DNA of 64,000 nt from Bolinopsis microptera. Lineage: Eukaryota > Ctenophora > Tentaculata > Lobata > Bolinopsidae. Location of the stretch: NCBI RefSeq assembly GCF_026151205.1, contig NC_087072.1:17499669-17563668 (forward strand), given 5' to 3'. Positions 13,033 through 58,603 of this stretch are shown here, piece after piece. Under the pieces are notes generated by a model. That model searched no databases. It was not told the DNA's origin and saw only the letters and a list, made by a program, of their open reading frames with translations. The stretch's first letter is position 1. Each line of letters starts with the position of its first letter. The translations under genes and the position numbers were made by a program.

Positions 13033-13225
13033 TCACGTGACTTTTTCAACCCGTTCTCTAGCTGGCCCTGAACAACTATTCGAAACCCTAACCCTCTTAT
13101 CAATATCTGATCATAACCCTAACCCTAGCTAACCCAATCCCTAACAAAATTGCATATGCTGATTGCTGAAACCCTAACCCTAACGAGAAATTAGACTAAC
13201 TTCCTCATACGGTCATATCACGTGA
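13033..13225. repeat. Telomere-like CCCTAA repeat between CACGTG sites, copy 1
   Basis: GTCACGTGACT at the left and ATCACGTGATC at the right enclose scattered ACCCTAACCCTAA runs (13085-13180). The same arrangement recurs at 19258-19505 and 34308-34460. CCCTAA is the complement of the animal telomere repeat. Because the flanks are shared by all three loci, a mobile or dispersed repeat that carries CCCTAA tracts explains it better than a chromosome-end relic. Confidence 0.55.
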
Positions 13226-13309
13226 TCGAGACAGTTTTTCGCCAATATCTGAATCTCGTCAGGGGAGCATTTTAACCGTATGTCATGACCACAATATCCA
13301 CACTTTATA

Positions 13310-14222
13310 TCACAGTGCTGGCAAGCACGAGCGGTGTCTTTATTGGGGGTATACTATGTACCCCCTTTACTATTGTACCCCCTTAACTATTATACCCCCT
13401 TTACTTTTATAACCCCTTTACACCCCCTTTGGTACACGTCGGAAGCCTCTTTCGTGCACGCGAAGCGTGCACTCCGGCAGGAGTTTTTCAGGCATTAAGA
13501 CTTATCGGAAGTCAAAACATTCTAATTTGGTGTCAAAGATGACAGGAATAAAAAATAGTTATGTTGAGATTTTTAAGAAATTTGCATAAAATACTCGCCA
13601 GTACTGTTATACGAAATTCGGTAAAAAAACCAAAATCGCCATATTCAGGTGCCTTAAAAACCATGTCAAAATTGAGTTAGAGATCTGAAATTTTTCAGGG
13701 CGTCTAGACGTTGACCAAATCGACTGCAAAAAAAGTTTCAAGTTTCAGGAGCATCGGGAAATGGGTTTTCTAGAACCCCTGTTTTACGACAGATTGTCGT
13801 GATCACAATGCTGGCAAGCATAACCGTTGCCCTTATATTCACAACACTATGTACCCCCTATACTATTATATCCCCTTTATTGTTTTCCAGGCATTAAGAC
13901 TCATCGAAAGTAGTTCAGCAGGTATATTTAAGTTCAAAACATTCTAATTCAATGTTAAAGATGACAGGAATAAAAAATAGTTATGTGGAGGTTTTTAAGA
14001 AATTTGCGCAAAATACGCGCCAGCATGTTATACGAAATTAGGTAAAAAACCCAAAATCGCCATATTCAGGTGCCTTAAAAACCTTGTTAAAATTGAGTTA
14101 GAGATCTGAAACTTTGCAGAGCGTCTAGACCTTGTCCAAATCGAATGTAAAAAAAATTTCATGTTGCAGGAGTATCGGGAAGTGAGTTTTCTGGAACCCC
14201 TGTTTTACAACAGATTGTCGTG
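13310..14222. repeat. Two-copy direct repeat with TACCCCC tract
   Basis: Two diverged direct copies, about 13310-13800 and 13801-14222. Shared landmarks are CACARTGCTGGCAAGCAY, a run of TATACCCCCTTTACTATT-like units, AAAGATGACAGGAATAAAAA and, at the end, CTGTTTTAC followed by CAGATTGTCGTGA. They abut the palindromic array that begins at about 14225. No coding capacity is seen. Confidence 0.75.
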
Positions 14223-14224
14223 AA

Positions 14225-15577
14225 GCTATATATATATATATATATGTATAGACGCTTTTGCAGTAAATTGTAGCCTACATTTAAGTGTCCGTAGATTCAA
14301 AAGTATAAAAGATACAGTCATTTCGAACCACAGGTTTTAAAGATAATTGTTTATACTTTAGTTTACATTATATCGAAAAATAATTTATCGTCATCATCAT
14401 CACTTGATGACGTCATCAATTTAAGTGTTTTTAAAACTTGATTTTTGACAAAATAACAACTTTTCAAATCGATTTTAAAGCATTAAGGAGTAATTTTATT
14501 CAAAATCTGCGGACATTTTCACCTTAGATAATTGTTCAAGCATTCTGAAAATCTACCGGAAAATTTTCCTACCTTGCTCCTTCATAAAGATATTCGCTAT
14601 TGAAGTTTGTGCTTTTTTGAAGAATAATTTTATAAAAACACAAAAGTTGTGAATTAGTATTCTCTGGTGTTGGGCCATCCCTTGGGTTGTGGAGCTCAAT
14701 TTTGCTTCCTAAAGGTCTAAATTGTGTTATAGGCTAGTTTTAAAGTTGAAAATCGAAAAGTTGCACACGTGGGGACACGCCCAAATTCATTTAAAATAGC
14801 TAAAATCACTAAAAATTGTTATTTTCACGATTTTTACCAACTTTGGAGTCCCGTTGTGATCCAAGTTCTTTTTGAAATCTTCTGAAACTTTTCATGCTTA
14901 TCAAACTATATATTAAATAACACTATGCAAAAATTTATGGTGATTCAATATTTTATGCGCGCGCAACGTCCGCTCAAAGTTTGCACGTGCGAAAGGTGAG
15001 AATTTTGCTCATTCGTGATTTCGAATATATTCTGCTTTCCCACGATATTAAAATGGCATTATATATGAATTTAATGCCACCTTGAATGAGTAAAAAGTGC
15101 TATATTCAGTCTGTTATTGACAGATATGCCTACCTAAACACAAGGAAACGTTTTCAAAGGTAAAATTTCGAAATCGTTGAAATTACCTCCTTATTAAGTT
15201 TCGACTGTGTAAATTATCCTGACATTATAATCAAAAAGAGATGATATTTGACCAAAACCCATAATCATGGGTAGAGTGAACCGCTGCCAGTGTCTCCCTT
15301 TTCCAAACAAAAGAAAATGATATTAATTTGAGGAACCGTCCGCAAATGCAAATTGATACCGAGAATGAAATCGGTCGCTCGCTTTTCCCATTCATTCACG
15401 GCTTACGTATTGTAATAAAGCTTATTGAATGGGAAAAGCGAGCGACCGATTTCATTCTCGGTATCAATTTGCATTTGCGGACGGTTCCTCAAATTAATAT
15501 CATTTTCTTTTGTTTGGAAAAGGGAGACACTGGCAGCGGTTCACTCTACCCATGATTATGGGTTTTGGTCAAATATA
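14225..15577 (+). mobile_element. Palindrome-tailed repeat, unit 1
   Basis: A unit of about 1.35 kb starts with a (TA)n tract and AGACGCTTT, and ends with a palindrome at 15244-15576. That palindrome has two perfectly matched 151-bp arms (15244-15394 and 15426-15576) around a 31-bp spacer. The body contains GGTGTTGGGCCATCCCTTGG and CACACGTGGGGACACGCCC landmarks. No protein is encoded apart from the reading frame through the hairpin. The first 420 bases are diverged from units 2 and 3, while the rest is almost identical to unit 2. It looks like a non-autonomous element whose terminal hairpin is its most constrained part. Confidence 0.8.
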
Positions 15578-16930
15578 TATATATATACATATATTCAGGG
15601 ATAGACGCTTTGCCAGTCAATTATAGGCTATATTTAGGTGTCCGTAGATTCAAAAGCTTTAAAGATACAGCCATTTCGGACCTCAGGTCTTGAAGATAAT
15701 TATTTAGACTTTAGTTTAAATTACATTTAAAAGTAATTTAACGTCGTCATCACCACTTGATGACGTCATCAAGTTAACCATTTTTAAAACTTGATTTTTG
15801 ACAAAGTAATCACTTTTAAAATCGATTTTACGCTATTAAGAAGTAATTTTATTCAAAATCTGAGGACATTTTCACCTTAGATAATTGTTCAAGCATTCTG
15901 AAAATCTACCGGAAAGTTTTTCTAGCTTGCTCCTTCATAAAGATATTCGCTATTGAAGTTAGATCTTTTTTAAAGAATAATTTTATAAAAACGCTAATTT
16001 TACGTTCTAGTATTCTCTGGTGTTGGGCCATCCCTTGGGTTGTGGAGCTCAATTTTGCTTCCTAAAGGTCTAAATTGTGTTATAGGCTAGTTTTAAAGTT
16101 GAAAATCGAAAAGTTGCACACGTGGGGACACGCCCAAATTCATTTAAAATAGCTAAAATCACTAAAAATTGTTATTTTCACGATTTTTACCAACTTTGGA
16201 GTCCCGTTGTGATCCAAGTTCTTTTTGAAATCTTCTGAAACTTTTCATGCTTATCAAACTATATATTAAATAACACTATGCAAAAATTTATGGTGATTCA
16301 ATATTTTATGCGCGCGCAACGTTCGCTCAAAGTTTGCACGTGCGAAAGGTGAGAATTTTGCTCATTCGTGATTTCGAATATATTCTGCTTTCCCACGATA
16401 TTAAAATGGCATTATATATGAATTTAATGCCACCTTGAATGAGTAAAAAGTGCTATATTCAGTCTGTTATTGACAGATATGCCTACCTAAACACAAGGAA
16501 ACGTTTTCAAAGGTAAAATTTCGAAATCGTTGAAATTACCTCCTTATTAAGTTTCGACTGTGTAAATTATCCTGACATTATAATCAAAAAGAGATGATAT
16601 TTGACCAAAACCCATAATCATGGGTAGAGTGAACCGCTGCCAGTGTCTCCCTTTTCCAAACAAAAGAAAATGATATTAATTTGAGGAACCGTCCGCAAAT
16701 GCAAATTGATACCGAGAATGAAATCGGTCGCTCGCTTTTCCCATTCATTCACGGCTTACGTATTGTAATAAAGCTTATTGAATGGGAAAAGCGAGCGACC
16801 GATTTCATTCTCGGTATCAATTTGCATTTGCGGACGGTTCCTCAAATTAATATCATTTTCTTTTGTTTGGAAAAGGGAGACACTGGCAGCGGTTCACTCT
16901 ACCCATGATTATGGGTTTTGGTCAAATATA
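15578..16930 (+). mobile_element. Palindrome-tailed repeat, unit 2
   Basis: Second unit at a 1,353-bp period. Its palindrome arms are 16597-16747 and 16779-16929, again perfectly matched. Sequence from about 14660 to 16000 is nearly identical to that from 16013 to 17353, with single changes such as CGTCCGC to CGTTCGC at 14970/16323. This shows a recent tandem duplication of exactly one period. Confidence 0.85.
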
Positions 16931-18335
16931 TATATATATACATATATTCAGGGATAGACGCTTTGCCAGTCAATTATAGGCTATATTTAGGTGTCCGTAG
17001 ATTCAAAAGCTTTAAAGATACAGCCATTTCGGACCTCAGGTCTTGAAGATAATTATTTAGACTTTAGTTTAAATTACATTTAAAAGTAATTTAACGTCGT
17101 CATCACCACTTGATGACGTCATCAAGTTAACCATTTTTAAAACTTGATTTTTGACAAAGTAATCACTTTTAAAATCGATTTTACGCTATTAAGAAGTAAT
17201 TTTATTCAAAATCTGAGGACATTTTCACCTTAGATAATTGTTCAAGCATTCTGAAAATCTACCGGAAAGTTTTTCTAGCTTGCTCCTTCATAAAGATATT
17301 CGCTATTGAAGTTAGTGCTTTTTTAAAGAATAATTTTATAAAAACGCTAATTTTACGTTCTAGTATTCTCTGGTGTTACACCATCCCTTGGGTTGTGGAG
17401 CTCAGTTTTGCTTCCTAAAGGTCTAAATTGTGTCATAGGCTAGTTTTAAAGTTGAAAATCGAAAAGTTGCACACGTGGGGCCACGCCCAAATTGATAGAA
17501 AATTGCTAAAATCACTGAAAATCACTGTTTTCACCAATTTTCGTCAACTTTGGAGTGCCGTTGTGATAACAGTTCTTCTTGAAATACTTTGAAACTTTCC
17601 ATGCTTATCAAACTATATATAAAACACCATGATGCAAAAATTTACGGTGATTCAATATTGGATGCGCACGCAACTTCCGCTCAAGGTTTGCACGTGCGAA
17701 AGGTTCAAATTTTGCTCATTCGTGATTTTGAACAAAATCTGCTTTGCCACGACAGTTCAATTTCATTATATATGAATTTAATGCCAACTTGAATGAGTAT
17801 AAAGTGGCATACTCAGTCAGTGATCGACCGATATGCTTACCTAAACACAAGGAAATGTTTTTAAAGGAAAAATTTCGAAATTGTTGAAATCACCTCCTTA
17901 TTAATATTAATGAAGTTATGAGTTTACATTTCGGCTTTGTAAAGTACCCTGACATTATAATCAAAAAGAGATGATATTTGACCAAAACCCATAATCATGG
18001 GTAGAGTGGAGCGCTGCCAGTGTCTCTCTTTCCCAAACAAAAGGCAATGATATCAATTTGAATGACCGTTATCAAATGCAAAATGATACCGAGAATTTAA
18101 TCGGTCGCTCGCTTTTCCCATTCATTTACAATTGAAATAGATTACATGTTATAAATCGAAACTTATTACAATTCGTAAGCCATGAATGAGTGGGAAAAGC
18201 GAGCGACCGATTTCATTGTCGGTATCATTTTGCATTTGATAACGGTCATTCAAATTGATATCATTGCATTTTGTTTGGGAAAGAGAGACACTGGCAGCGC
18301 TCCACTCTACCCATGATTATGGGTTTTGGTCAAAT
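16931..18335 (+). mobile_element. Palindrome-tailed repeat, unit 3
   Basis: Third unit. Its 5' 420 bases match unit 2 closely, but from about 17370 on it diverges strongly. Its palindrome (17976-18335) has a longer spacer of about 60 bases. Its arms differ from units 1 and 2 at many positions, yet left and right arms still match each other, for example GGAGCGCTGCC against GGCAGCGCTCC, and ACCGTTATC against GATAACGGT. Confidence 0.8.
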
Positions 18336-18453
18336 TAGAACTTACTGAATTGCCGTGAGTGGCAGCTACAACCGCATGATCCTTTGAATCCTGTCCAGAA
18401 TCGTTTCCCTTAAAGCCTTAACAATACCATTTAGATTAGGACCATTATACTTT

Positions 18454-18844
18454 TCATTGTTTGAGATTGATTGCCAGAGTGATGGTATCATCTAAACTTT
18501 TAGTGTCCTCCATCAGGCGCTGCCGAATTTGCTTGTCCCTTAGCCCACTGATAAGAGCTGTTCTAATGCTCTCTTCCCCATGAACAGCAGCTGATAGAGA
18601 TACTTCGGTAAAATTACACTGTTTCGCCAGTGTCCGCAACGCCTTGTATCACGTGGTGACCCCCACTGTCGCTTCGACGATACAGGGGGAGCCGCGCACT
18701 TCGTGCGCGGCGGGTCATACAACGTATGACAAGCAACGCCAAGATGAATTGATTAACTGATTCAGATTCAGTTTGACTCCGTGTATATAAACAATATCTC
18801 GCAAAGTTAGTATTCTTTGTTTTAACGCAGGCCCTCAATTCCAA
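18454..18844 (-). pseudogene. Broken Ty3/Gypsy-like gag fragment
   Basis: Two minus-strand open pieces, 18844-18733 and 18643-18454, resemble the capsid-like part of Ty3/Gypsy Gag: a TRSQTESESVNQF segment typical of the region that places retroelement RNA-binding capsids, followed by a CNF-type turn and GLRDKQIRQRL. The frame is interrupted by an 89-bp MITE at 18644-18732 flanked by the 8-bp duplication GCAACGCC. No protease, RT or LTR is visible nearby, and the palindromic array abuts it on the left. It is a dead fragment. Confidence 0.7.
18644..18732 (-). mobile_element. Short MITE with 8-bp TSD (copy 1)
   Basis: An 89-bp element beginning TTGT at both ends (read inward) and flanked by GCAACGCC at 18636-18643 and 18733-18740. 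It carries a GC-rich hairpin (GCCGCGCACTTCGTGCGCGGC). The second copy is at 46378-46525 in the opposite orientation. An 8-bp target duplication points to hAT-type transposition, though hAT ends usually start CA. Confidence 0.8.
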
Positions 18845-29700: not shown

Positions 29701-32700
29701 TACCTAAACAGTTAAAATGATTATTAAAATTTGTAAAATCTATGTATAAATATACAAGGATTATAAACAATGTCGTCTAGAATTTAAAATGATATCCTCG
29801 CCATTGAATTAAATAATGATTTTAAAATATGTATTTACGTGTTAACGTGTAAAGCAGGAGCTATAGCCAGCGTGATGCTGAAGATCCAGGTGGCAAGGAA
29901 AAGAATTTGGGGCTTGATTCTCTTTTGAAGGTTTGCGTAGAACATTGGTGCAGTTATAGCAATGACTCTGTCCACGGCAATGGACATGTTACTCAGCAGT
30001 GAAACCAACATGCATACCATGAAGATTGCCCTGATTGGATATTTTAATTAGCTGTTTAGCATTTTAGTTTAAAAACATCGTTTGAAGGAACGTTACTGAT
30101 TTTCTCGGAATAGACCTAATAAAAACGGAGCTCCATAAAAACGATGTTATACTTTTAATAAGTGGAACGTCATCTTTTGTTAGTCAAGTCAATAGTGATC
30201 AGAAATTTTGCTTTTTGAAAATCTTCTCATGATTTTCAATTGTTGTCGTACATAATATAAAACTAGTTATTTACAATTTTAACACTTTTTGACTCACCCT
30301 TCTTCTCTACAAAACGGAGGATCCCCGATGAGAGATTGGTGAGCGATCTTTCTGTAGAGTTTATAATTCCTGTAGAAAAATTTTAAAGATAGAGAGTATA
30401 GTATATAGGGAAGTTGGTCGTTTAGCTCCGGACAGTCTATGCAACGTCTATGCAACGTCCGTGCAACAACAAAAGAACCGTCTATGCAACGTCTATGCAA
30501 CGTCCCTGCACAATGAACACTCTATGCACACTCCCTGCACGGTCAGTCTATGCAACGTCTATGCAACGTCTATGCAACGTCCCTGCACAGTACCATATGA
30601 ACACCGGCTACTAGCCGGCTACTAGCCGGCTAGTAGCCACTTTTGTAATAACAGCTCCTCAACTTCACATTAACAACCGGCTACTAACCGGCACTTGAAA
30701 AGTGGTCACTAGCCGGCTACTAACCGGCTACTAGCCGGCTAGTGATCACAAAGTGGCTACTAACCGGCTACTAAGCGGTCACTAGCCGGCTATTAGCCGA
30801 GCTCTAAAGCAGACCTATTAGTAGCCGGTTCTAAACCGGCTACTAGCCGGCACTTGAAAAGCGGTCACTAGCCGGCTACTAACCGGCTAGTAACCACCAA
30901 GTGGCTACTAACCGGCTACTAACCGGTCACTAGCCGGCTCTAAAGCAGACCGGTTAGTAGCCGGTTAGTAGCCACTTGGTGGTTACTAGCCGGTTAGTAG
31001 CCGGTTAGTAAGTAGCCGACTAGTGACCGCTTTCTAAGTGCCGGCTAGTAGCCGGTTTGGAACCGGCTACTAGTAGGTCTGCTTTAGAGCTCGGCTAATA
31101 GCCGGCTAGTGACCGCTTAGTAGCCGGTTAGTAGCCACTTTGTGGTCACTAGCCGGCTAGTAGCCGGTTAGTAGCCGGCTAGTGACCACTTTTCAAGTGC
31201 CGGTTAGTAGCCGGTTGGTAATGTGAAGTTGAGGAGCTGTTATTATAAAAGTGGCTACTAGCCGGCTAGTAGCCGGCTAGTAGCCGGTGTTCATATGGTA
31301 CTGTGCAGGGACGTTGCATAGACGTTGCATAGACGTTGCATAGACGTTGCATAGACTGACCGTGCAGGGAGTGTGCATAGAGTGTTCATTGTGCAGGGAC
31401 GTTGCATAGACGTTGCATAGACGGTTCTTTTGTTGTTGCATGGACGTTGCATAGACGTTGCATAGACTGTCCGGAGCTAAACGACCAAGTTGCCAGTATA
31501 TAGTACTAGAAACCCGCCGCTAGTCGAAAGCTTTGTTCGAGGAAATTTTAAGCATCAGTTATGTTTTAATTTCTCTTCATCATATAGCCCCAAAACGATA
31601 CTTTTTACCGCATCAAAAAATTTCAATCACAACCAAAGTTATAAATATATATAGGTATATAGCGTCATGAGGGTAAATGTGAGCTAGTTGTGAAATTCTG
31701 ACGTAGCATACAGCATAACACCGCGCGTTGAAATCCGCTGTAGTCGAAAATTTTATTAAAGGACACTATAAATCCTCGCAGAGATTATCCGCGAATGTTT
31801 CCCACAGAGATAGGGGGTCAGAACTCAGACGGTTCGCATGCGCAGATGACCGTAACAAAAAATTGTCTAAGTTTTAGAGCAGACAATGTAGCACTAATCT
31901 CGTTCATCGCATCAAAAATGTGGTCATCGTTGTCCAATAAGCCGTGTCTTCTGCAAGCCTCTTTGAAGGTTGACAGTAGCTCACCGTCAACTGTCTTGAG
32001 GTGAGCGAATGACGTTGGGCCTGGCTGATGAACCAACAACAGTCTGAGGTAGTAAAGATCACCAATTTTTGGTGACATCGAGTAGAGTCTACCAATAGTA
32101 TTTGAGTGGACTACTACAGAATCGTCGGTCTGATACATCTTCCTTCCACCAATCTGACGACGCTTCCACTCTCCTTTTCCCCAGGTGTAAAACTCGGGGA
32201 ATTCGTGATATTTTAAAGTAGAAGCAAATAAGTCCTCTGAGCAGAGATTAAAGAATGCCACAAGTTTCGAAGGGGGTGGGTTACTGTTCTCCATGGACTG
32301 GGATGTAGTAGTCTCTGGATTGAATATGAATTGGTGTTCCCCCTCGAGGTGTATGTCTAATGTAACGACTGTTGGCCGGTGACCGTTTCGTTCCATACCA
32401 AGTATGACCATAGTGGCTTCATTAGATTTAGCCCCCAAATACCTAAAAATTAGAAATTAGAAATTATAAAGATCATAGCAATTTTACATATAATGGTGTA
32501 AGATCCAGATCAATTAAATGAAAATTACTCAACGAAGAACAGTAAACATACCTATGATTCTCATATTCGGATATTTCATCCAAACCCGGACTTTGTAGAT
32601 TATATGTAGCCCTGTCAGTTCCTTTATACGTATATTTTAGAATATATTTGATTGAGTTGACTGAACTGCAAATTTCAACGTTAATGTGACAGTTCATCTG

Positions 32701-35700
32701 TCGTGAGAGAAACGGAGAATAAGGGACAATCCAGCTGTTGTCTACTATAACAACTGTTCTTAGGCAGTTCTTTTTCATATCTTTAACTCTCACAGCAAAT
32801 CGATTGTGCAGAGATCTCCGTTTAGCAGGTCTAGATCCAAGAAAGGGCATTGAAAAACAACAACAGATGAGTAAAATATGTTAATCGTTGGAAGATATTT
32901 CAATCGAGAATGACAGTCAATTGAATTATTGCCAGGCAATTAAAATGGCACGTGATGTTTAACTGCGCAAAGTTATGACGTAGCATACAGCATAACAACG
33001 CGCGTAGTTAAAATGTTATTGCTCGCGCACGTGCATTTTAACGTTGCTACGCAACAGCGCAGTAAACCTTTGCTAAAATAACGCCATTATTCTAACGATT
33101 ATTTAACCTCACTTTCGACGTTTATTATAAAAAATCTAAAGCCTAAATCAAAATTCTAAGAATGCTATAGCCTATTCCTATCCTTTTTCTACAACCCTGC
33201 TAAAAATGGCGAGGTTTCAACTCCATTTGCGAGCTGGGTTTGGCATCACCAGAGGGTCATTTTGAGGTCGATTTTCGGTGTTTTTTCTTCTATGTCCCCG
33301 TTGCCGGGGAAATTTCGTCAAGTTTAAAATATAATATAGATAGTAGGAGAGAGTATAGTAGCAAATAATGTAGATTGGCATGTTGCCAAAAGACGTATGA
33401 GTTATAGGTATCTAATTAATCAGCTTTCATTATGGTTTGACTGAATTATCAATATCACTAATATGGGTAAGTGCATTTAAGTTAATCCGAGGAAAACTCA
33501 ACGCTAGAAAGCAATCATTATGACCATATTATGGTCACCATAGCCATTGTTTAGAAATTTCATTTTCAGGTACTTAAATCAGCATTGAATTGGAGTTCTA
33601 TATATTATATTCTATACATTATATTATGATCATAGCTTACCATATTAGATAGAGGGTGTAAGGCATACATATACACGTCTTTAACAGATCTGCTGACACG
33701 AGGTTAAAGAACCACACATAGAACTGTGAAGCTGAGGATATCAGTGACAGCACTGCCAAGGAATTACCTGAAGAAAATAGCCATTATATAAACCTGAATT
33801 ATTTGCTACATATCCACAATAAAGTTATATAGGTTATATTATATAAGGTTATATATAAGGTTATATATAAGGTTATATATAAGGTTATATATATTATTAT
33901 ATATAGTCTCAATAGTGACTTTAATATATAAGGTTATATATATAAGTACTACATCTTCTATTAGGTTTAAAAACTCTCCATTTTTCTTTCTCCTCAAGCG
34001 AATATGAACCCTAATTAATAAAACTTAGATCGAAACTTTTAATTAATCTGTTTTATCAACCTATCAATGACGCGAGGAATATGATTAAGTGAATGGAGAA
34101 GTAGATGTATTCCAACCATCCAGGGGGAAGATAGTCCGTAACTGGGAGAATATGTGTTTATAACATAAGATATACCAGCTGAGAATAAATTATCAACTCT
34201 TTCAGTTAAAATACAGCAGCATGCTGCGTGGAAATGGTAAGCTGATGCAGTTTTTAGGGGATAGGTGTGATTTCTTGCTGTTTCATTGGGCTCATATTAT
34301 TTCGATCGCCCAAAATTATCACCTGACTCGGGTTTGTACGGGTTTTCAGTCGAACGAATCAATAGTCTTACCTAAATCCCAACCCTAACCACAAACCTTA
34401 CCCTAACCCATGTCATAAAACTCGTGTTTTACTTTTACTAGGCTGTCACGAGACCAAAACAGTTTTTTGTCCATTAATCTTCAAGGAAGCATTTTAATTA
34501 TATCCCCTGTTTTGAGATCTTGAAACAAAAAACAACTCGATGTCAGAAAATATTGAGATCATAAAATAATGGAACATGCCATGTCATTGCCACGTGGAAA
34601 GTCAAAAAGCGCACATAAGTGGCAACATGAAATTGAACGATTATGCCTTTTCTGTCCACATTTTTCAGTTCAGTATTTTGTGATTCCTTGACTTTGTGAT
34701 TGTGGATTAAAAATGCCTTTTAAGAAACTAACATTAACAATGATTGCAACAGCAATAAATATCCTTTTGGTAGTAGTCGCTGAAGAGGGAACCACAGCTG
34801 TTATAAACACAGCTGTTATAAACACAGCTGTTATAAACACAGCTGTTATAAACACAGCTGTTATAAACACAGCTGTTATAAACACAGCTGTTATAAACAC
34901 AGCTGTTATAAACACAGCTGTTATAAACACAGCTGTTATAAACACAGCTGTTATAAACACAACTGTTATAAACACAGCTGTTATAAACACAGCTGTTATA
35001 TATTCGGAGCCCTTTCGGCGATTTATTGTAACCCCCGGAAACGAATGCCAGGAATACTGCAAGTATGAAGCCGAATGTAAGACGTTCTCCTTCGACCTAG
35101 ATTGGCTATCCGAGTGTTTTTTGTACCGAGAAAATAGGAGCACTCTGGTTTACGAAGCTAGCAATGCATCACATATTATATTCGGAATGAAGGACTGTAA
35201 TGTTGAATGGTCCTATATAAACATGCAGGGTCAGTTTAAGATGGGCCAGGAGGATGCTGTTGTTTTTCTGAGGACTGATTTGAAGATGTGTGCTGAGGTG
35301 AATTACACAGAAACCAAACCTTCCTCGTCCATGGGATATCAGTTGTTTTTTAGTTCATCCTGCGAAATTGCTCAGCAATGGTAAATTGTCCCTTCTTAGG
35401 AAAAGTTTGGAAACATGTGTCTTTCGGCTCTGTACGGCTTATCCCGATCAGCCTGCTTAAAGTCTTGTAAAAATGAAAATAGTTATCTTCTGCTGTGCCC
35501 AGAGAGAAGAGATTCTTGGTCACTCTACGAGTATGATCCTGTCTTTCAACCAATCAATATTCCCATCAAAGATTCCACCAACTTCCTCAACAGAAGACCT
35601 ATGTCCCTCCTTGATCTTGTGACTGGCAACAAGCTCAAAACACTACACAATATCCTATGCAAGAATATGAGTGTAAGAGATGAGAGGATCTCGCTTGAGG

Positions 35701-46525: not shown

Positions 46526-46891
46526 AAGCGAGTAACTATGATATTGATTTTGACTACAGTAATGATTCTGTAAACGACATTGAGTTCAGTACCAGCAGAA
46601 TCCGAAAAATTCTAAAAGACGTCAATGTTATAATAAAGCTGCTGGTACAGGTGGCATCCATGGCAAAATTTTAAAGAACTGTAGAGATAGTATTGCATAT
46701 CCACTCTAGAGCCTTTTAAAAATTTCATATAACATAGGTCAGATACCATCTGAATGGAAATTGGCTAACGTAGTACCTGTGCATAAGAAAGGCCCCAAAA
46801 CTTTCGTTGAAAATTATCGGCCAATCTATGATCTAGCTCTCACCAGCCTTGCAATGAAATTTTTGAGAAAATTGTGAGAGATGAACTGTTG

Positions 46892-47576
46892 GCACGTGCG
46901 AAAGTTGAGAATTTTGCTCATTCGTGATTTCCAACAAATTCTGCTTTGCCACGACAGTTTAATGTCATTATATATGAATTTAATGCCAACTTGAATGAGT
47001 ATTAAGTGGCATATTCAGTCAGTGATCGACCGATATGCTTACCTAAACACAAGGAAATGTTCTTAAAGGAAAAATTTCGAAATCGTTGAAACTTCCTCCT
47101 TATTAATGAAGATATTAGTTTATATTTCGACTTTATAAAGTACCCTGACATTATAATCAAAAAGAGATGATATTTTACCAAAACCCATAATCATGGGTAG
47201 AGTGGACCGCTGCCAGTGTCTCTCTTTCCCAAACAAAAGGAAATGATATTAATTTGATTGACCGTTCTCAAATGCAAAATGATATTGATACCGAGAACTT
47301 CAGCTAATTCAATAAGTAATAACTACCACCCTTACCCCGAAATACTAGGTAGTAGGTATCGACCCGAACGCAACAGCATCTGATTGATGTAATCAATCGA
47401 AACTTATTACAATTCGTAAGCCGTGAATGAATGGGAAAAGCGAGCGACCGATTTCATTCTCGGTATCATTTTGCATTTGAGAACGGTCAATTAAATTAAT
47501 ATCATTTCCTTTTGTTTGGGAAAGAGAGACACTGGCAGCGGTCCACTCTACCCATGATTATGGGTTTTGGTAAAAT
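46892..47576 (+). mobile_element. Palindrome-tailed repeat, 3' part inside LINE
   Basis: The 3' half of the same unit as at 14.2-18.3 kb: GCACGTGCGAAAG start (matches 14980), then the palindrome 47172-47576 with a spacer of about 125 bases. Arms match each other, for example GTGGACCGCTGCC with GGCAGCGGTCCAC. The outer end is ATTTTACC/GGTAAAAT where the other copies have TTTGACC/GGTCAAA; the change is present on both arms. It lies in the RT gene, with a loss of about 200 bases of LINE. Confidence 0.85.
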
Positions 47577-54300: not shown

Positions 54301-55458
54301 AATCTTATATTAGAAACTTTTCATAAGGATTATTAATGACACTAATATTTAATCTTATATTCTAATTTTAGAAGTACCCTGAAGACTACATCATGGCTCA
54401 TAAAGATTTGTCATGCAATTTAAAAGCTCATAAAGATTTAAGTTACAAGTAAAGAAGCTTAAGTTATGCGCATAGACCAAGAAAATAACGTTTTGCCCCA
54501 ATAAGTATTAAGTATGAGTCACTAATAGTAATAGAAGTTAATATTTATAGAATCAAATTTAAAACAAGATAAGATGGCTTGATCAGTTTTTGTAGTTGAT
54601 TATTAACAAGCAGTATCACCAATATCGTTAAGTGTGGCTTCAGTCAATAGAGTCATTGTCGTCAAGTTTTAAAAATCAAGGTTCAACCAAATTTATGAGG
54701 AAGGGTAAAACTAATTGCCTACATATCAAAAATGTTTAAAGATTAGGTTAACTTTACATGCCGTATTTTGTGCTAATATGGTCACAGTTGCCTTCTTCCA
54801 TTGTGAAACATTTAGACCAAAACAATTTCTCTGCTTTGTCATAACCAACTAAATATTTCTTTGTGTTTTAGAACGTAAATGTCCTGGTCAGTGAAATAAT
54901 CATAGAATTAAATTCTGCTTAATGTGCTCAACTCTTCTCTTTCTTCCTTAACTCTTCTCTTTCTTCCTCAATGTCACTTTAATACGATAAATACGATATA
55001 ATATTTTTGCGAAAATACAGTTAAAGGCATGGATCATAACTATTCCTTACTCTCTTATAATCAGTATTCAGTATGTGGTGCCCGTCATATTGATCATATT
55101 AATGCCGGAAAGCTCCTCAAAACCTGTAAACAAATCCCAGCAAATTGAAAAAATCAATATCATTATCATTTGCGATCGTTGCTCATAAAGCCATACTTAT
55201 TCGAAACAGACTGGTCAGGACTGGTCACAGTATAAAACTAATATAGTTATACAGCGTCAGATTCTGTCTACGAGAATCATACGGGCAAATCCATAGAAAT
55301 ACAACCAATCTTTGAGATTAAACCTTTAAAACTTAAAGTTATCAACCAACTTGGGGCCTGTAACCTGCGCAGAAATTAGTTAGACTGAGCAGAATAATAT
55401 CAGATATTTAGAATATGGTTACTGCAATACAAGAATGATAGAATTTTTTTTGGAAATA
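51341..55458. other. Gene-poor stretch with local duplications
   Basis: No gene recognised. CACAGTCTCTAGAAAACAAT and its surroundings are tandemly duplicated at 51978-52064 (about 45-bp period). 53310-53480 carries degenerate ACGGCCTCCATATGACTTCC units. 54213-54360 carries three copies of a 50-bp unit (TTAGAAACTTTTCATAAGGA). Confidence 0.45.
54213..54360. repeat. 50-bp tandem repeat, three copies
   Basis: AATCTTATAT recurs at 54251, 54301 and 54351. Copies 2 and 3 are identical, and copy 1 has a few changes (CATACAGATC for CATAAGGATT). Confidence 0.95.
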
Positions 55459-55460
55459 TA

Positions 55461-57640
55461 CAGGGTGGGCCAAAAGTCAGTGTGCAAACGTTTGGTCTTA
55501 TACCTCCGCCGTATTTTATATTCGAGAGCTGTTGCTTTGCAAATGGCATACTGTACCTTCTTGTTAAAGAAGGTACAGTATGCCGTCGCCAAAATTTGAA
55601 AATTCGAATATTTTAAACCACGTCCATTCAATATTAAAACACCTATATTGTTCTCTCTGAACATGCTGGACGCCTAATTTTTTCAGAGACGGTAGATTAT
55701 TAAATGTTGCATCTGATCTGAAAAACTGAGGCAAAACAAATTAGAAATGACGACGTTATGAAGCATTTTGTGTATCTCGTTCAAAAATTGATTGGGATTA
55801 CCTTATCGGTCATAATTATCACGGACATTACTGTCACGCTGAAGACCTTAGCGTGAATAATTATGTCCGTGAAAATGATGTCTGAGGCATTAAGGTCCGT
55901 AAATAATAAAGTTCGGTAATTATTTCCATTAATTTTAATGTGTGTGTCCCTACATATGCGTAGATACTAGATATGTGTGTAGCCGATTACTATATTAGCT
56001 TATTAGTATACTAGGACAAATATAATCACTCCTCAGTCACATTCTAGAGTTCAGAAAAAGAGTAAAACACTTATTAAACAAGAATTGCGCCCGTTGTTTC
56101 GTTTTGGCGGACGCTAGATTTCCATTGACTATAACTATAAGTATAAGCTCTAATCAGCTCACTTCATAATAATAATATTGATAAATTATGCTTTAAATAC
56201 GGGAAACACTTGAAAATGAAATTCAATTCAATTGCCGTAGAACTTAACTTGTATCTGTGATTCAAAAAATTGTAAGCAAAAGTAAACTATACTCATGTTT
56301 TATACACATCAGTACACTACGCGTGCCACGTACAAATTTGGCCTATTACCTAATACTATACATTACATAGTATACATTAAATACACTCGCGCCGCGCATT
56401 CATTGACCAAAGGCTAGCTATACAGTATACACCACATCTCCGTAAGCAATCGTCGCGCGGTGCGCGCGGCAAGTTGACATGGTAACTAACGAAAGGAAGG
56501 AAGGAATGACAACATATTTAAACCTAACTACCTGATCGTTCTCCAAAATCCGGATCCACGTTTTTCTGCAAAAACGACCATTCATAACCTTTCACTACAC
56601 TATTGCTTTTTTACAAAAGGGTGAAATGGAAAAAATCACCAAAAATGTCCACAATATCAGTAAAACTAAAACATGACATATTTTGACAGGCAAAATTCAC
56701 ATAACTGCCGATTTAGGGATGAAGGAGTGTGTTTAGGGTTCTGAAAGTATCATACGCTAATACAAATGGCATGGTGGAAAATGGTTAACTTTAGTCAAGG
56801 TCTCATGTCTCTACGACCTTCGGTTTTTGCGCAATGAATCCCGCGCAAACTCCATGCGGGAACTTAAACTTCCCGACATCGTAGCGAGACCTAAAACCTC
56901 GACCAAAGTTAACCTTTTCCTACTGTTTGTATTGAAGTAATATACATTTAGAAATCCTTCTATACTCCTTCGTGACTAAATTGACGATATAACGAATTTT
57001 ACCTGTTAAAAATTGATGAAAAATATGGGTGTGGCCGGAGGACCACTAAAATGGTCGAGTTGGAACTTGAAATTTTTTTTGTGGTTATTGAACCTAAGGA
57101 TCAACAGATAAGAACATACTGGAAGATATTAAATAACATTTTGTTTTTACCTACCTAGTGAATAATTATGTCCGCGAATAATTATGTCCGTGAAAAAGTT
57201 GTCCGTGATAATTGTGACCGATAAGGTATGTGATCACAACGTGACACGACACCTTAATTGGGCAGCCTTAACGATTCCCGAAATGTTTAAAGGGGTGGTT
57301 AACGGGGTCACCTAATCACGTGATGAATTAACTCGTTATGCTACGTATCTCGGTCATCTGAGAAACTAAAACTCTCATTTTTTCAGGACAAACGTAATTT
57401 GAATGTCCAAACACAATTCAATAAAATTTAGCTCGATCCGACTATCCAAACTATCAAATAAATGCAAAAATGAACCTTCATTTGAAAAAAAATGAACACG
57501 AATATTTTTCGATTTGACAAATTCGTCGAACCAGTGGTGGTAGTAAGTCATACCGGAAAGAATTATTTCAATTGGGCACTCAGTGACTGAGCTATTATTA
57601 TTAAGGCCAACGTTTGCACACTGACTTTTGTCCCACCCTA
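55461..57640. mobile_element. Mariner-like TIR element, no transposase
   Basis: The left end CAGGGTGGGCCAAAAGTCAG and the right end, inverted, TAGGGTGGGACAAAAGTCAG continue together for about 35 bases (TGTGCAAACGTT) and are flanked by TA on both sides. CAGGGTG...CAAAAGT ends with a TA target are typical of mariner elements. I find no DDE transposase frame; the interior holds a second element (55801-57226). It is non-autonomous. Confidence 0.8.
55801..57226. mobile_element. Nested TIR element with TA target
   Basis: Ends CCTTATCGGTCATAATTATC and, inverted at the right, CCTTATCGGTCACAATTATC agree at 25 of 26 bases and are flanked by TA. Subterminal TAATTATGTCCGTGAA repeats occur at both ends. 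The interior is non-coding and includes a diverged inverted repeat at about 56775-56935 (GGTTAACTTTAGTCAAGGTC / GACCAAAGTTAACC). Confidence 0.8.
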
Positions 57641-58603
57641 TATCATCGACCATCGACCTGTATAACGCCCCTGGCATTTTAATAACCCTCTGGATCTCTG
57701 GCAACATTTACCTACGAACCTTAAAAATCGCAGTTCTTTTCACAGACAATCACATTAGGTAAACCTTTTCTTTGCAATATTCGATTGTGGGCCGCTTATA
57801 ATAAGAGGAATATTTTCATGTGGAAACATAGAATTATAATAATAAGTCGACAGCAAAATTGTAGAAGAGCGGATCCTTCAAATGATCAAGTGAAGCTGAT
57901 AGGGCGCATTCAAATGAATTAAATGATTATATCAGAATTACAACTAATTGCAGCACTGAAGTATATTTGCAAACTTAGTGGTCAACGATTTAAATTTAAA
58001 TAAATGCAGTGAGATTTGATATAATAGAATTTGATATTTTACGTCACAGCCATTCAATTTCAACCGTATTTGGAAGTAAAATTGTTGAAATTGAGGAATT
58101 TTATAATGCATGTGGTTAAGCAGAAAAATTATTAGGTCGCAATTCGTTGAAGTAAATTATAGATATAACTCCACTTTTGACCTATTTGGCGGCCATTTAT
58201 TAATTCCATAATTAAGCACCGGTTTTTGTTCCAGGGGGTGCGATTACAAAACTAATTGCACTGTTTTGAGAGTGACCGAAATCTTATTAGGTACGATTAC
58301 TAAACTAATTGCACTGATTCCCTGAAAGATGCTGTAAATCATGGCTCAGGCAGATAATTAGAGTTAGAGAGAGCACCTCGTAAAATGAGGACCTAATTAA
58401 AACCGAGTAATTTACTACTGTGAGGTGATGATTCAAGTATTGACTTAAATCAACTACCTGAGGTAGTTTGGCGACCGTTAGTGCAATGGTCGCACGAAAT
58501 AAATTTATGGACATAAATTTAAATTTATAGTTTAGGAAAACATCTTTCCTTGTGTTTGGAATAAGTCAATCCTTACATTGCATTAACACAACACAGTATG
58601 AGG
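57641..58603. other. Intergenic stretch
   Basis: No gene seen. CGATTACAAAACTAATTGCACTG occurs as a near-perfect direct pair at about 58242 and 58287. Confidence 0.4.

Follow-up and report, generated by a model that had tools for sequence, protein, structure and literature searches.

The window analysed here is a stretch of 64,000 nucleotides from the ctenophore Bolinopsis microptera (RefSeq assembly GCF_026151205.1, contig NC_087072.1, positions 17,499,669 to 17,563,668 of the forward strand), in which four copies of a long hairpin occur at 15244-15576, 16597-16929, 17976-18335 and 47172-47576. An earlier note on this DNA, made from the letters alone, had described these hairpins and proposed that something keeps their two arms equal. 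In this study we report that the hairpin is the palindromic 3' end of a non-coding Helitron-like element, that new changes in one arm are often mirrored in the other, and that the loop between the arms is found in both orientations. These observations lead us to favour a process in which one arm is copied from the other.

The four hairpins lie where the earlier note had placed them and have a common layout, with arms that are perfectly complementary over 151 nt and separated by a 31-nt gap in copies 1 and 2. Copies 1 and 2 are tandem duplicates with a period of 1,353 bp, and are therefore counted once rather than as independent cases, while the palindrome forms the 3' end of a larger unit and is not free-standing. 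The exact complementarity claimed for every copy holds for copies 1 and 2 but not for copies 3 and 4, which have some one-arm mismatches (97% complementarity over 151 nt in copy 3, and 99% over 113 nt in copy 4). The three arm variants, CCGTCCGC, CCGTTATC and CCGTTCTC, are each mirrored on the opposite arm, as is the outer-end change TTTGACC/TTTTACC. A feature absent from the earlier note is that the loop is inverted in copies 1 and 2 relative to copies 3 and 4. The outermost 2 bp of the 151 are the AT at the flank, and the arm length is taken as 149 bp. The features of the element are as follows.

13310..18334, plus strand: Helitron-like composite, from 5' TCACAGTGCTGGCAAGCAC... to 3' ...GGTTTTGGTCAAA, with A before and T after
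13310..13802, plus strand: 5' segment ('up'), which begins TC and is partially repeated at 13803-14226
14227..15574, plus strand: unit 1 (body and palindrome), extending to 15576 in the self-comparison
15246..15394, plus strand: left arm of copy 1, 149 bp
15395..15425: loop of copy 1, 31 bp, in the orientation opposite to copies 3 and 4
15426..15574, minus strand: right arm of copy 1, the perfect complement of the left arm
15548..15563, plus strand: 16-nt terminal hairpin ACCCAT-gatt-ATGGGT, 10 nt from the 3' end of the element, as read from the sequence
15577..16929, plus strand: unit 2, tandem copy of unit 1, with its palindrome at 16599-16927 and its loop at 16748-16778
16930..18335, plus strand: unit 3, diverged, with its palindrome at 17976-18335 and its loop at 18125-18186 if the arms are 149 bp
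46888..47576, plus strand: copy 4, a 5'-truncated unit with its palindrome at 47172-47576, 113 bp of arm paired and a large loop

The composite, whose ends at 13310 and 18334 are inferred from a nested insertion at C3:2977863-2981409 (see below), contains the 5' segment once, a partial second copy of it, and then three tandem body and palindrome units. These stand head to tail, each closed by its palindrome, and self-comparison gives a unit length of about 1.35-1.41 kb. The 5' segment has a subterminal inverted repeat, GTGCT-ggca-AGCAC, and the left arm contains a reversed copy of the 16-nt terminal hairpin. No open reading frame of 130 or more amino acids is present in 13310-18334.

Further copies were searched for in the whole 265-Mb genome with a 27-base pattern spanning the junction of body and arm, with at most 2 mismatches. 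The pattern was found at 1,345 places, and the backwards control at none. Our sample consists of the first 100 exact-match places of the 1,345, all on contig C1, that is 96 fetched stretches and the four window copies. Six were dropped for a truncated or rearranged palindrome (L032, L042, L043, L054, L076 and L100) and three whose palindrome ran beyond the fetched stretch (L091, L092 and L094), leaving 91 copies. Mismatch means were calculated on 90 copies (W4 omitted), rate counts on 87 (W4, L051, L060 and L079 omitted), and per-group rates on 78 copies belonging to 6 groups of at least 4 members. The innermost 8 arm columns were excluded from the private counts and from the means, which refer to the outer 141 columns, because several groups are unmatched there.

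The earlier note had asked whether, in a larger set, mismatches within a copy are as common as differences between copies. They are not: the two arms of a copy mismatch at 0.56% on average and are perfect in 53 of the 90 copies, compared with a difference of 5.4% between a left arm and the right arm of another copy. In the largest subfamily (34 copies) the corresponding values are 0.23% within and 1.76% between copies, with bodies 2.1% apart. Differences between subfamilies are mirrored as well. When the majority sequences of the 8 groups of at least 2 copies are compared over the outer 141 columns (28 comparisons), 196 differences are counted on the left arm and 196 on the right, 189 being mirrored; over all 149 columns the counts are 239, 259 and 199. 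Groups 2 and 12, whose bodies are 10% apart, show 10 left and 10 right differences, all 10 paired, and groups 10 and 11 (2 copies each) differ from group 12 mostly by unpaired changes. The correlation of arm distance with body distance is 0.79 without four copies of deviant body, and 0.24 with them.

Since sharing among subfamily members could mislead, we counted private alleles, which occur in one sampled copy only. The 87 copies carry 21 paired private changes, present on both arms, and 39 one-arm changes. Alleles found in exactly two of the 182 arms point the same way: 21 of the 28 have both occurrences in one copy and 7 are split between two copies, where random placement would give a same-copy expectation of 1/181 (P about 4e-42, relatedness being ignored). 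For alleles in 4, 5 and 8 arms, the ratios of paired to mixed carriers are 12:0, 2:1 and 4:0. Indels can be mirrored too, with four such events of 1-7 nt against five unmirrored indel runs, four of them in L027 alone. In addition, the genome was scanned for non-consensus bases at four arm sites. Each had been chosen for a paired variant already present in the sample, and the scan therefore yields no unbiased rate. Its 54 matches correspond to 14 copies in which the change is on both arms (5-6 events) and to 26 one-arm copies, the latter an upper limit since partner arms with a further change or a deletion are missed; about 0.01 paired copies are expected by chance. Three of the variants have their paired form at a single place each in the genome, as far as the scanned patterns go. 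Mirroring between the arms is thus seen among private changes, small indels and subfamily differences alike, in agreement with the proposal that something keeps them equal.

The loop adds a second line of evidence. In the short-loop family it is found in both orientations relative to the body. A single orientation is seen in all 34 copies of the long-loop group 12 of the C1 sample, and in 5 of 5 copies of group 8, which has a 62-bp loop. Genome-wide pattern counts give 280 places against 115 for the short loop (minority 115/395, raw) and 453 against 17 for the long-loop start (minority 17/470, raw), a class that is mostly about 210 nt long with some shortened members; as many as 17 of the 280 short-loop places are inverted long-loop copies, and no fewer than 3 palindromes are counted twice in the short-loop counts. 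With the known double counts removed, the minority orientation represents about 30% for the short loop and 3.6% for the long loop (Fisher P about 1e-27, although the copies are related, hence not independent, and loop length is not the only difference between the classes). At least four arm haplotypes are represented among the 17 inverted long-loop places, as read from the letters, which indicates several inversions. Three of these copies were fetched: L116 and L118 are plain inversions, and L119 (C1:12773700-12775300) has an internal inverted duplication in its long loop, possibly a fold-back product. In L028, arm and loop have been copied back on themselves, extending the arm from 149 to over 210 bp. 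Parvovirus terminal hairpins occur as flip and flop in near-equal numbers, unlike the raw 280:115 and 453:17 counted here.

In one case an inversion is accompanied by shared flanks. L083 and L084 lie in opposite arms of an inverted duplication of 12.6 kb on C1. Along 5,225 bp, three substitutions and a clean inversion of the 31-bp loop are all that separates them, and this provides the best evidence for what would be an in-place event. This near-perfect palindrome (C1:17597776-17610337, with L110, L122 and L111) is 99.7% self-complementary and contains at least four units.

Several features assign the element to a Helitron-like family, of which the palindrome is the 3' terminus. A T lies directly 3' of the ...GGT(N)AAA end in 90 of the 91 copies with a readable 3' flank. 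The ends of these copies read ...GGTCAAA or ...GGTAAAA, with one ...GGTTAAA, and lack the CTRR of a canonical Helitron; we therefore describe the element as Helitron-like, without counting it as a canonical member. At C3:2977863-2981409 (L115, L120 and L121), a whole reverse copy is nested in the left arm of another copy, the two sharing 1,524 bp at 100% identity in inverted orientation, so that this self-insertion appears to be very recent. As the interrupted arm sequence is known, so is the empty site: the element, from TCACA... to ...GGTCAAA, has split an A and a T precisely, with no target duplication, and in this sole clean case it is flanked by A at its 5' end and by T at its 3' end. At its 5' junction the host sequence CAAATTAA is followed by the element sequence TCACAATGC..., and the window copy likewise has A followed by TCACAG. 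The TC start, the A^T insertion without target duplication (one empty site) and a 16-nt hairpin (ACCCATGATTATGGGT) 10 nt from the 3' end are those of canonical Helitrons, for which the reference description gives a palindrome of 16-20 nt about 11 nt from the 3' end (PMC4067079). A pair of 12-15 bp subterminal inverted repeats between the two ends, of the Helentron/HINE type, in which T-rich flanks on both sides are also expected, was not seen in a check by eye. Elsewhere in the window, two neighbouring open frames at 31818-32880 on the minus strand match the Helitron transposase Helraiser in a PDB sequence search (7lcc, E about 1e-17 to 2e-17), Pfam giving nothing in these fragments; they are probably a broken Helitron gene, which may or may not be linked to the palindrome element.

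A foldback transposon, or a free-standing foldback or miniature inverted-repeat transposable element (MITE), was rejected, because the two arms are together at the 3' end, the body lies to one side of them, and the inverted repeats do not occupy the two ends of the element. Two apparent departures from this layout were also discarded: L114, with body on both sides, is a chance flank match, and L115, considered as an inverted dimer, reads as a reverse copy inside a left arm. Since the left arm is the reversed 3' end including the flanking A/T base, the palindrome may itself stem from a reversed self-insertion such as that on C3. As a separate observation, L108 (C1:10848189-10851636) and L109 (C1:15238089-15241519) contain the same series of three units, with short, long and short loops at near-equal spacing, and are 91% identical over 5.7 kb, as if the composite of units moved whole.

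Arm and body rates bear directly on what keeps the arms equal. In the 78 copies of the six groups, private changes per site amount to 0.00246 for paired changes, 0.00168 for one-arm changes (per arm) and 0.00446 for the body. The comparison with the body that the earlier note had suggested thus gives 0.93 for paired and one-arm changes together (bootstrap 0.67-1.26), which is the value expected for neutral arms with unbiased copying; the ratio is 0.38 (0.25-0.55) for one-arm and 0.55 (0.34-0.80) for paired changes taken alone. Selection on a structured hairpin RNA or DNA, holding the arms complementary via compensatory mutation, would account for a pairing kept across subfamilies, and a 3' hairpin is probably needed for mobility. 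We nevertheless regard it as highly improbable, given an arm rate close to that of the body, the persistence of one-arm changes and the nature of the changes: transversions make up 13 of the 21 changes that are paired, 24 of the 39 on one arm and 34 of the 59 in the body, so that the transition share is similar in all three, and only 5 of the 39 one-arm changes produce a G-U pair (top strand), with no wobble bias. Multi-base mirrored indels would moreover be hard to obtain by compensation, and Rfam returned no family at gathering threshold in 13200-18500. We give just as little credence to the view that no process continues, each subfamily having inherited a freshly made palindrome whose arms match by recent origin. 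Copies do form subfamilies with near-identical arms, and fold-back products of the L028 type indicate that palindromes can be remade, but changes confined to a single copy are already mirrored, three variants are paired at one genomic place only, and within a subfamily the arms are closer within copies than between them.

Of the three causes put forward in the earlier note, hairpin selection is thus disfavoured and the other two are retained: copying from arm to arm, by gene conversion or template switching, and copying that goes with transposition. Helitrons have single-stranded intermediates, and homogenisation might be confined to transposition, if a single-stranded rolling-circle intermediate folded and had its stem mismatches repaired, insertions then starting perfect and decaying. 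The Helitron-like characters (A^T insertion, no target duplication, 5' TC, terminal hairpin), the Helraiser-like gene fragments in the same window, the nearly mismatch-free subfamily 12 (0.23%), the 9 copies with one paired variant in common, and one-arm changes at 0.38 of the private rate of the body are all in its favour. The loop flip between duplication arms with shared flanks, however, needs no transposition, and a hairpin-linked process alone leaves the fall in inversion from 30% to 3.6% between loop classes unexplained, so that we see this account as possible but rather unlikely. Still more doubtful is a rolling-circle transposon with a self-priming or self-repairing terminal hairpin, in which transposition rewrites one arm and sometimes flips the loop; were it true, it would represent a eukaryotic transposon with a parvovirus-like hairpin-transfer step on a Helitron-type 3' terminus. 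We lean instead, with some confidence, towards arm copying that is not confined to transposition but takes place on chromosomal copies too. Both timings fit the ratios of 0.38 for one-arm and 0.55 for paired changes; the flip in the duplication favours in-place events, and the paired variant of 9 copies favours events in source copies.

The agent of this arm copying would be template switching rather than recombination. The palindrome could fold into a cruciform or, where a fork or a gap leaves DNA single-stranded, into a hairpin, and a polymerase switching to the other arm or strand would then rewrite a mutated arm, or spread a new base to both. A switch to the complementary strand across the whole loop would yield an inverted loop; if only the nascent strand folded back, the arms would be corrected and the orientation of the loop kept. 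Both signs of template switching are seen here, arm homogenisation and an inversion favoured by short spacers, the latter between classes for which loop length is not the sole difference. Fold-back copying matches what is seen in the long-loop family, in which arms are corrected and inversions are rare, and the frequent inversions of the short-loop family agree with interstrand switching or with exchange at a cruciform. Recombinational gene conversion between the arms would leave identical marks.

Several observations weigh against this explanation. The ratio of paired to one-arm private changes varies between groups, being 2:13 in the short-loop groups 2 and 3, 5:6 in groups 1 and 7, 8:9 in group 8 and 12:9 in the long-loop group 12. 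This goes against a single simple process and implies that the correction of arms and the flipping of loops are at most loosely coupled. The flip between L083 and L084 is the sole one with shared flanks, and the giant palindrome could be an assembly product; if it were the product of one locus, the flip could represent two versions of that locus, or else a sequencing or assembly error. Among unit pairs at least 98% identical in which both orientations were called, 10 of 11 agree, the exception being L110/L111, the flip already described. Alleles in exactly 3 arms have mostly mixed carriers (4 paired, 10 mixed), and one-arm changes persist, as in the 26 copies at the four scanned sites. When the variants and lineages that guided the choice of these sites are set aside, one further paired copy (C5) or two (C11) are left, and one paired haplotype is common to 9 copies, as expected from a source lineage.

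Outside the composite, a reverse-transcriptase match lies immediately downstream of copy 4. This copy (46888-47576) is presumably inserted in a reverse transcriptase gene of the type without long terminal repeats (non-LTR), part of which is missing there, going by its conserved motifs. Telomere-like interstitial AACCCT repeats adjoin the composite at 13070-13185, and a short-period repeat at 34692-35149 has open frames on both strands (NTAVI and FITAV repeated). A 768-bp element with TACAGGGTGGGC and CCCACCCTGTA ends splits a unit at L008:4921-5688, and related DNA is found in the window at 55457-55796 and 57227-57643.

In the printed cases of hairpin correction and spacer inversion that we found, the repeats are short. 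With its several loop lengths, and a body that serves as a clock, this natural family would allow one to measure how fast arms are copied, over what tract length, and how this depends on loop size. It also carries a warning, as paired changes in hairpins, usually taken as a sign of selection on RNA structure, can arise without it. We found no paper on arm homogenisation together with loop inversion in such a transposon family, in a literature search outside of which most subscription-journal papers fell, and the accessible text of the Galileo paper contains nothing on arm homogenisation (PMC4168063).

The closest system is inverted-repeat template switching in yeast (S. cerevisiae strains), in which arms become identical, the spacer inverts, shorter spacers are favoured and inversion takes place mostly on already perfect arms (PMC8604942). 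The yeast repeats lie in coding genes, with arms 7-16 bp long and inverted spacers of 2-5 bp, whereas here the arms are 149 bp and the loops 31 to about 210 nt, in a repeat found at 1,345 places. Paired changes that arise by copying one side of a stem off the other are also described for RNA hairpins, where stem correction with an unchanged loop is ascribed to fold-back switching and rare loop inversion to interstrand switching (PMC8794818); those are RNA genes under selection, while here the arms belong to a non-coding transposon and change at about the rate of its body. In ISWpi1 of Wolbachia, exchange between terminal repeats inverts the interior and equalises the repeats by recombination, but these repeats are 23 bp long and lie at the two ends of the element, in contrast to the two arms at one end reported here (PMC3004938). 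The element resembles canonical Helitrons in its 5' TC, its A^T insertion without target duplication and its 16-nt hairpin near the 3' end, and HINEs/DINE-1 (Helentrons) in having a 3' palindrome and no coding capacity; unlike the CTRR of a canonical Helitron, its 3' end reads CAAA or AAAA, and this end is present twice over, as a palindrome of about 330-520 bp (PMC4067079). The process itself is known, and the novelty lies in its occurrence on long arms and in many copies, in the difference between the loop classes and in a Helitron-like 3' end that has been doubled, on a scale that is unusual.

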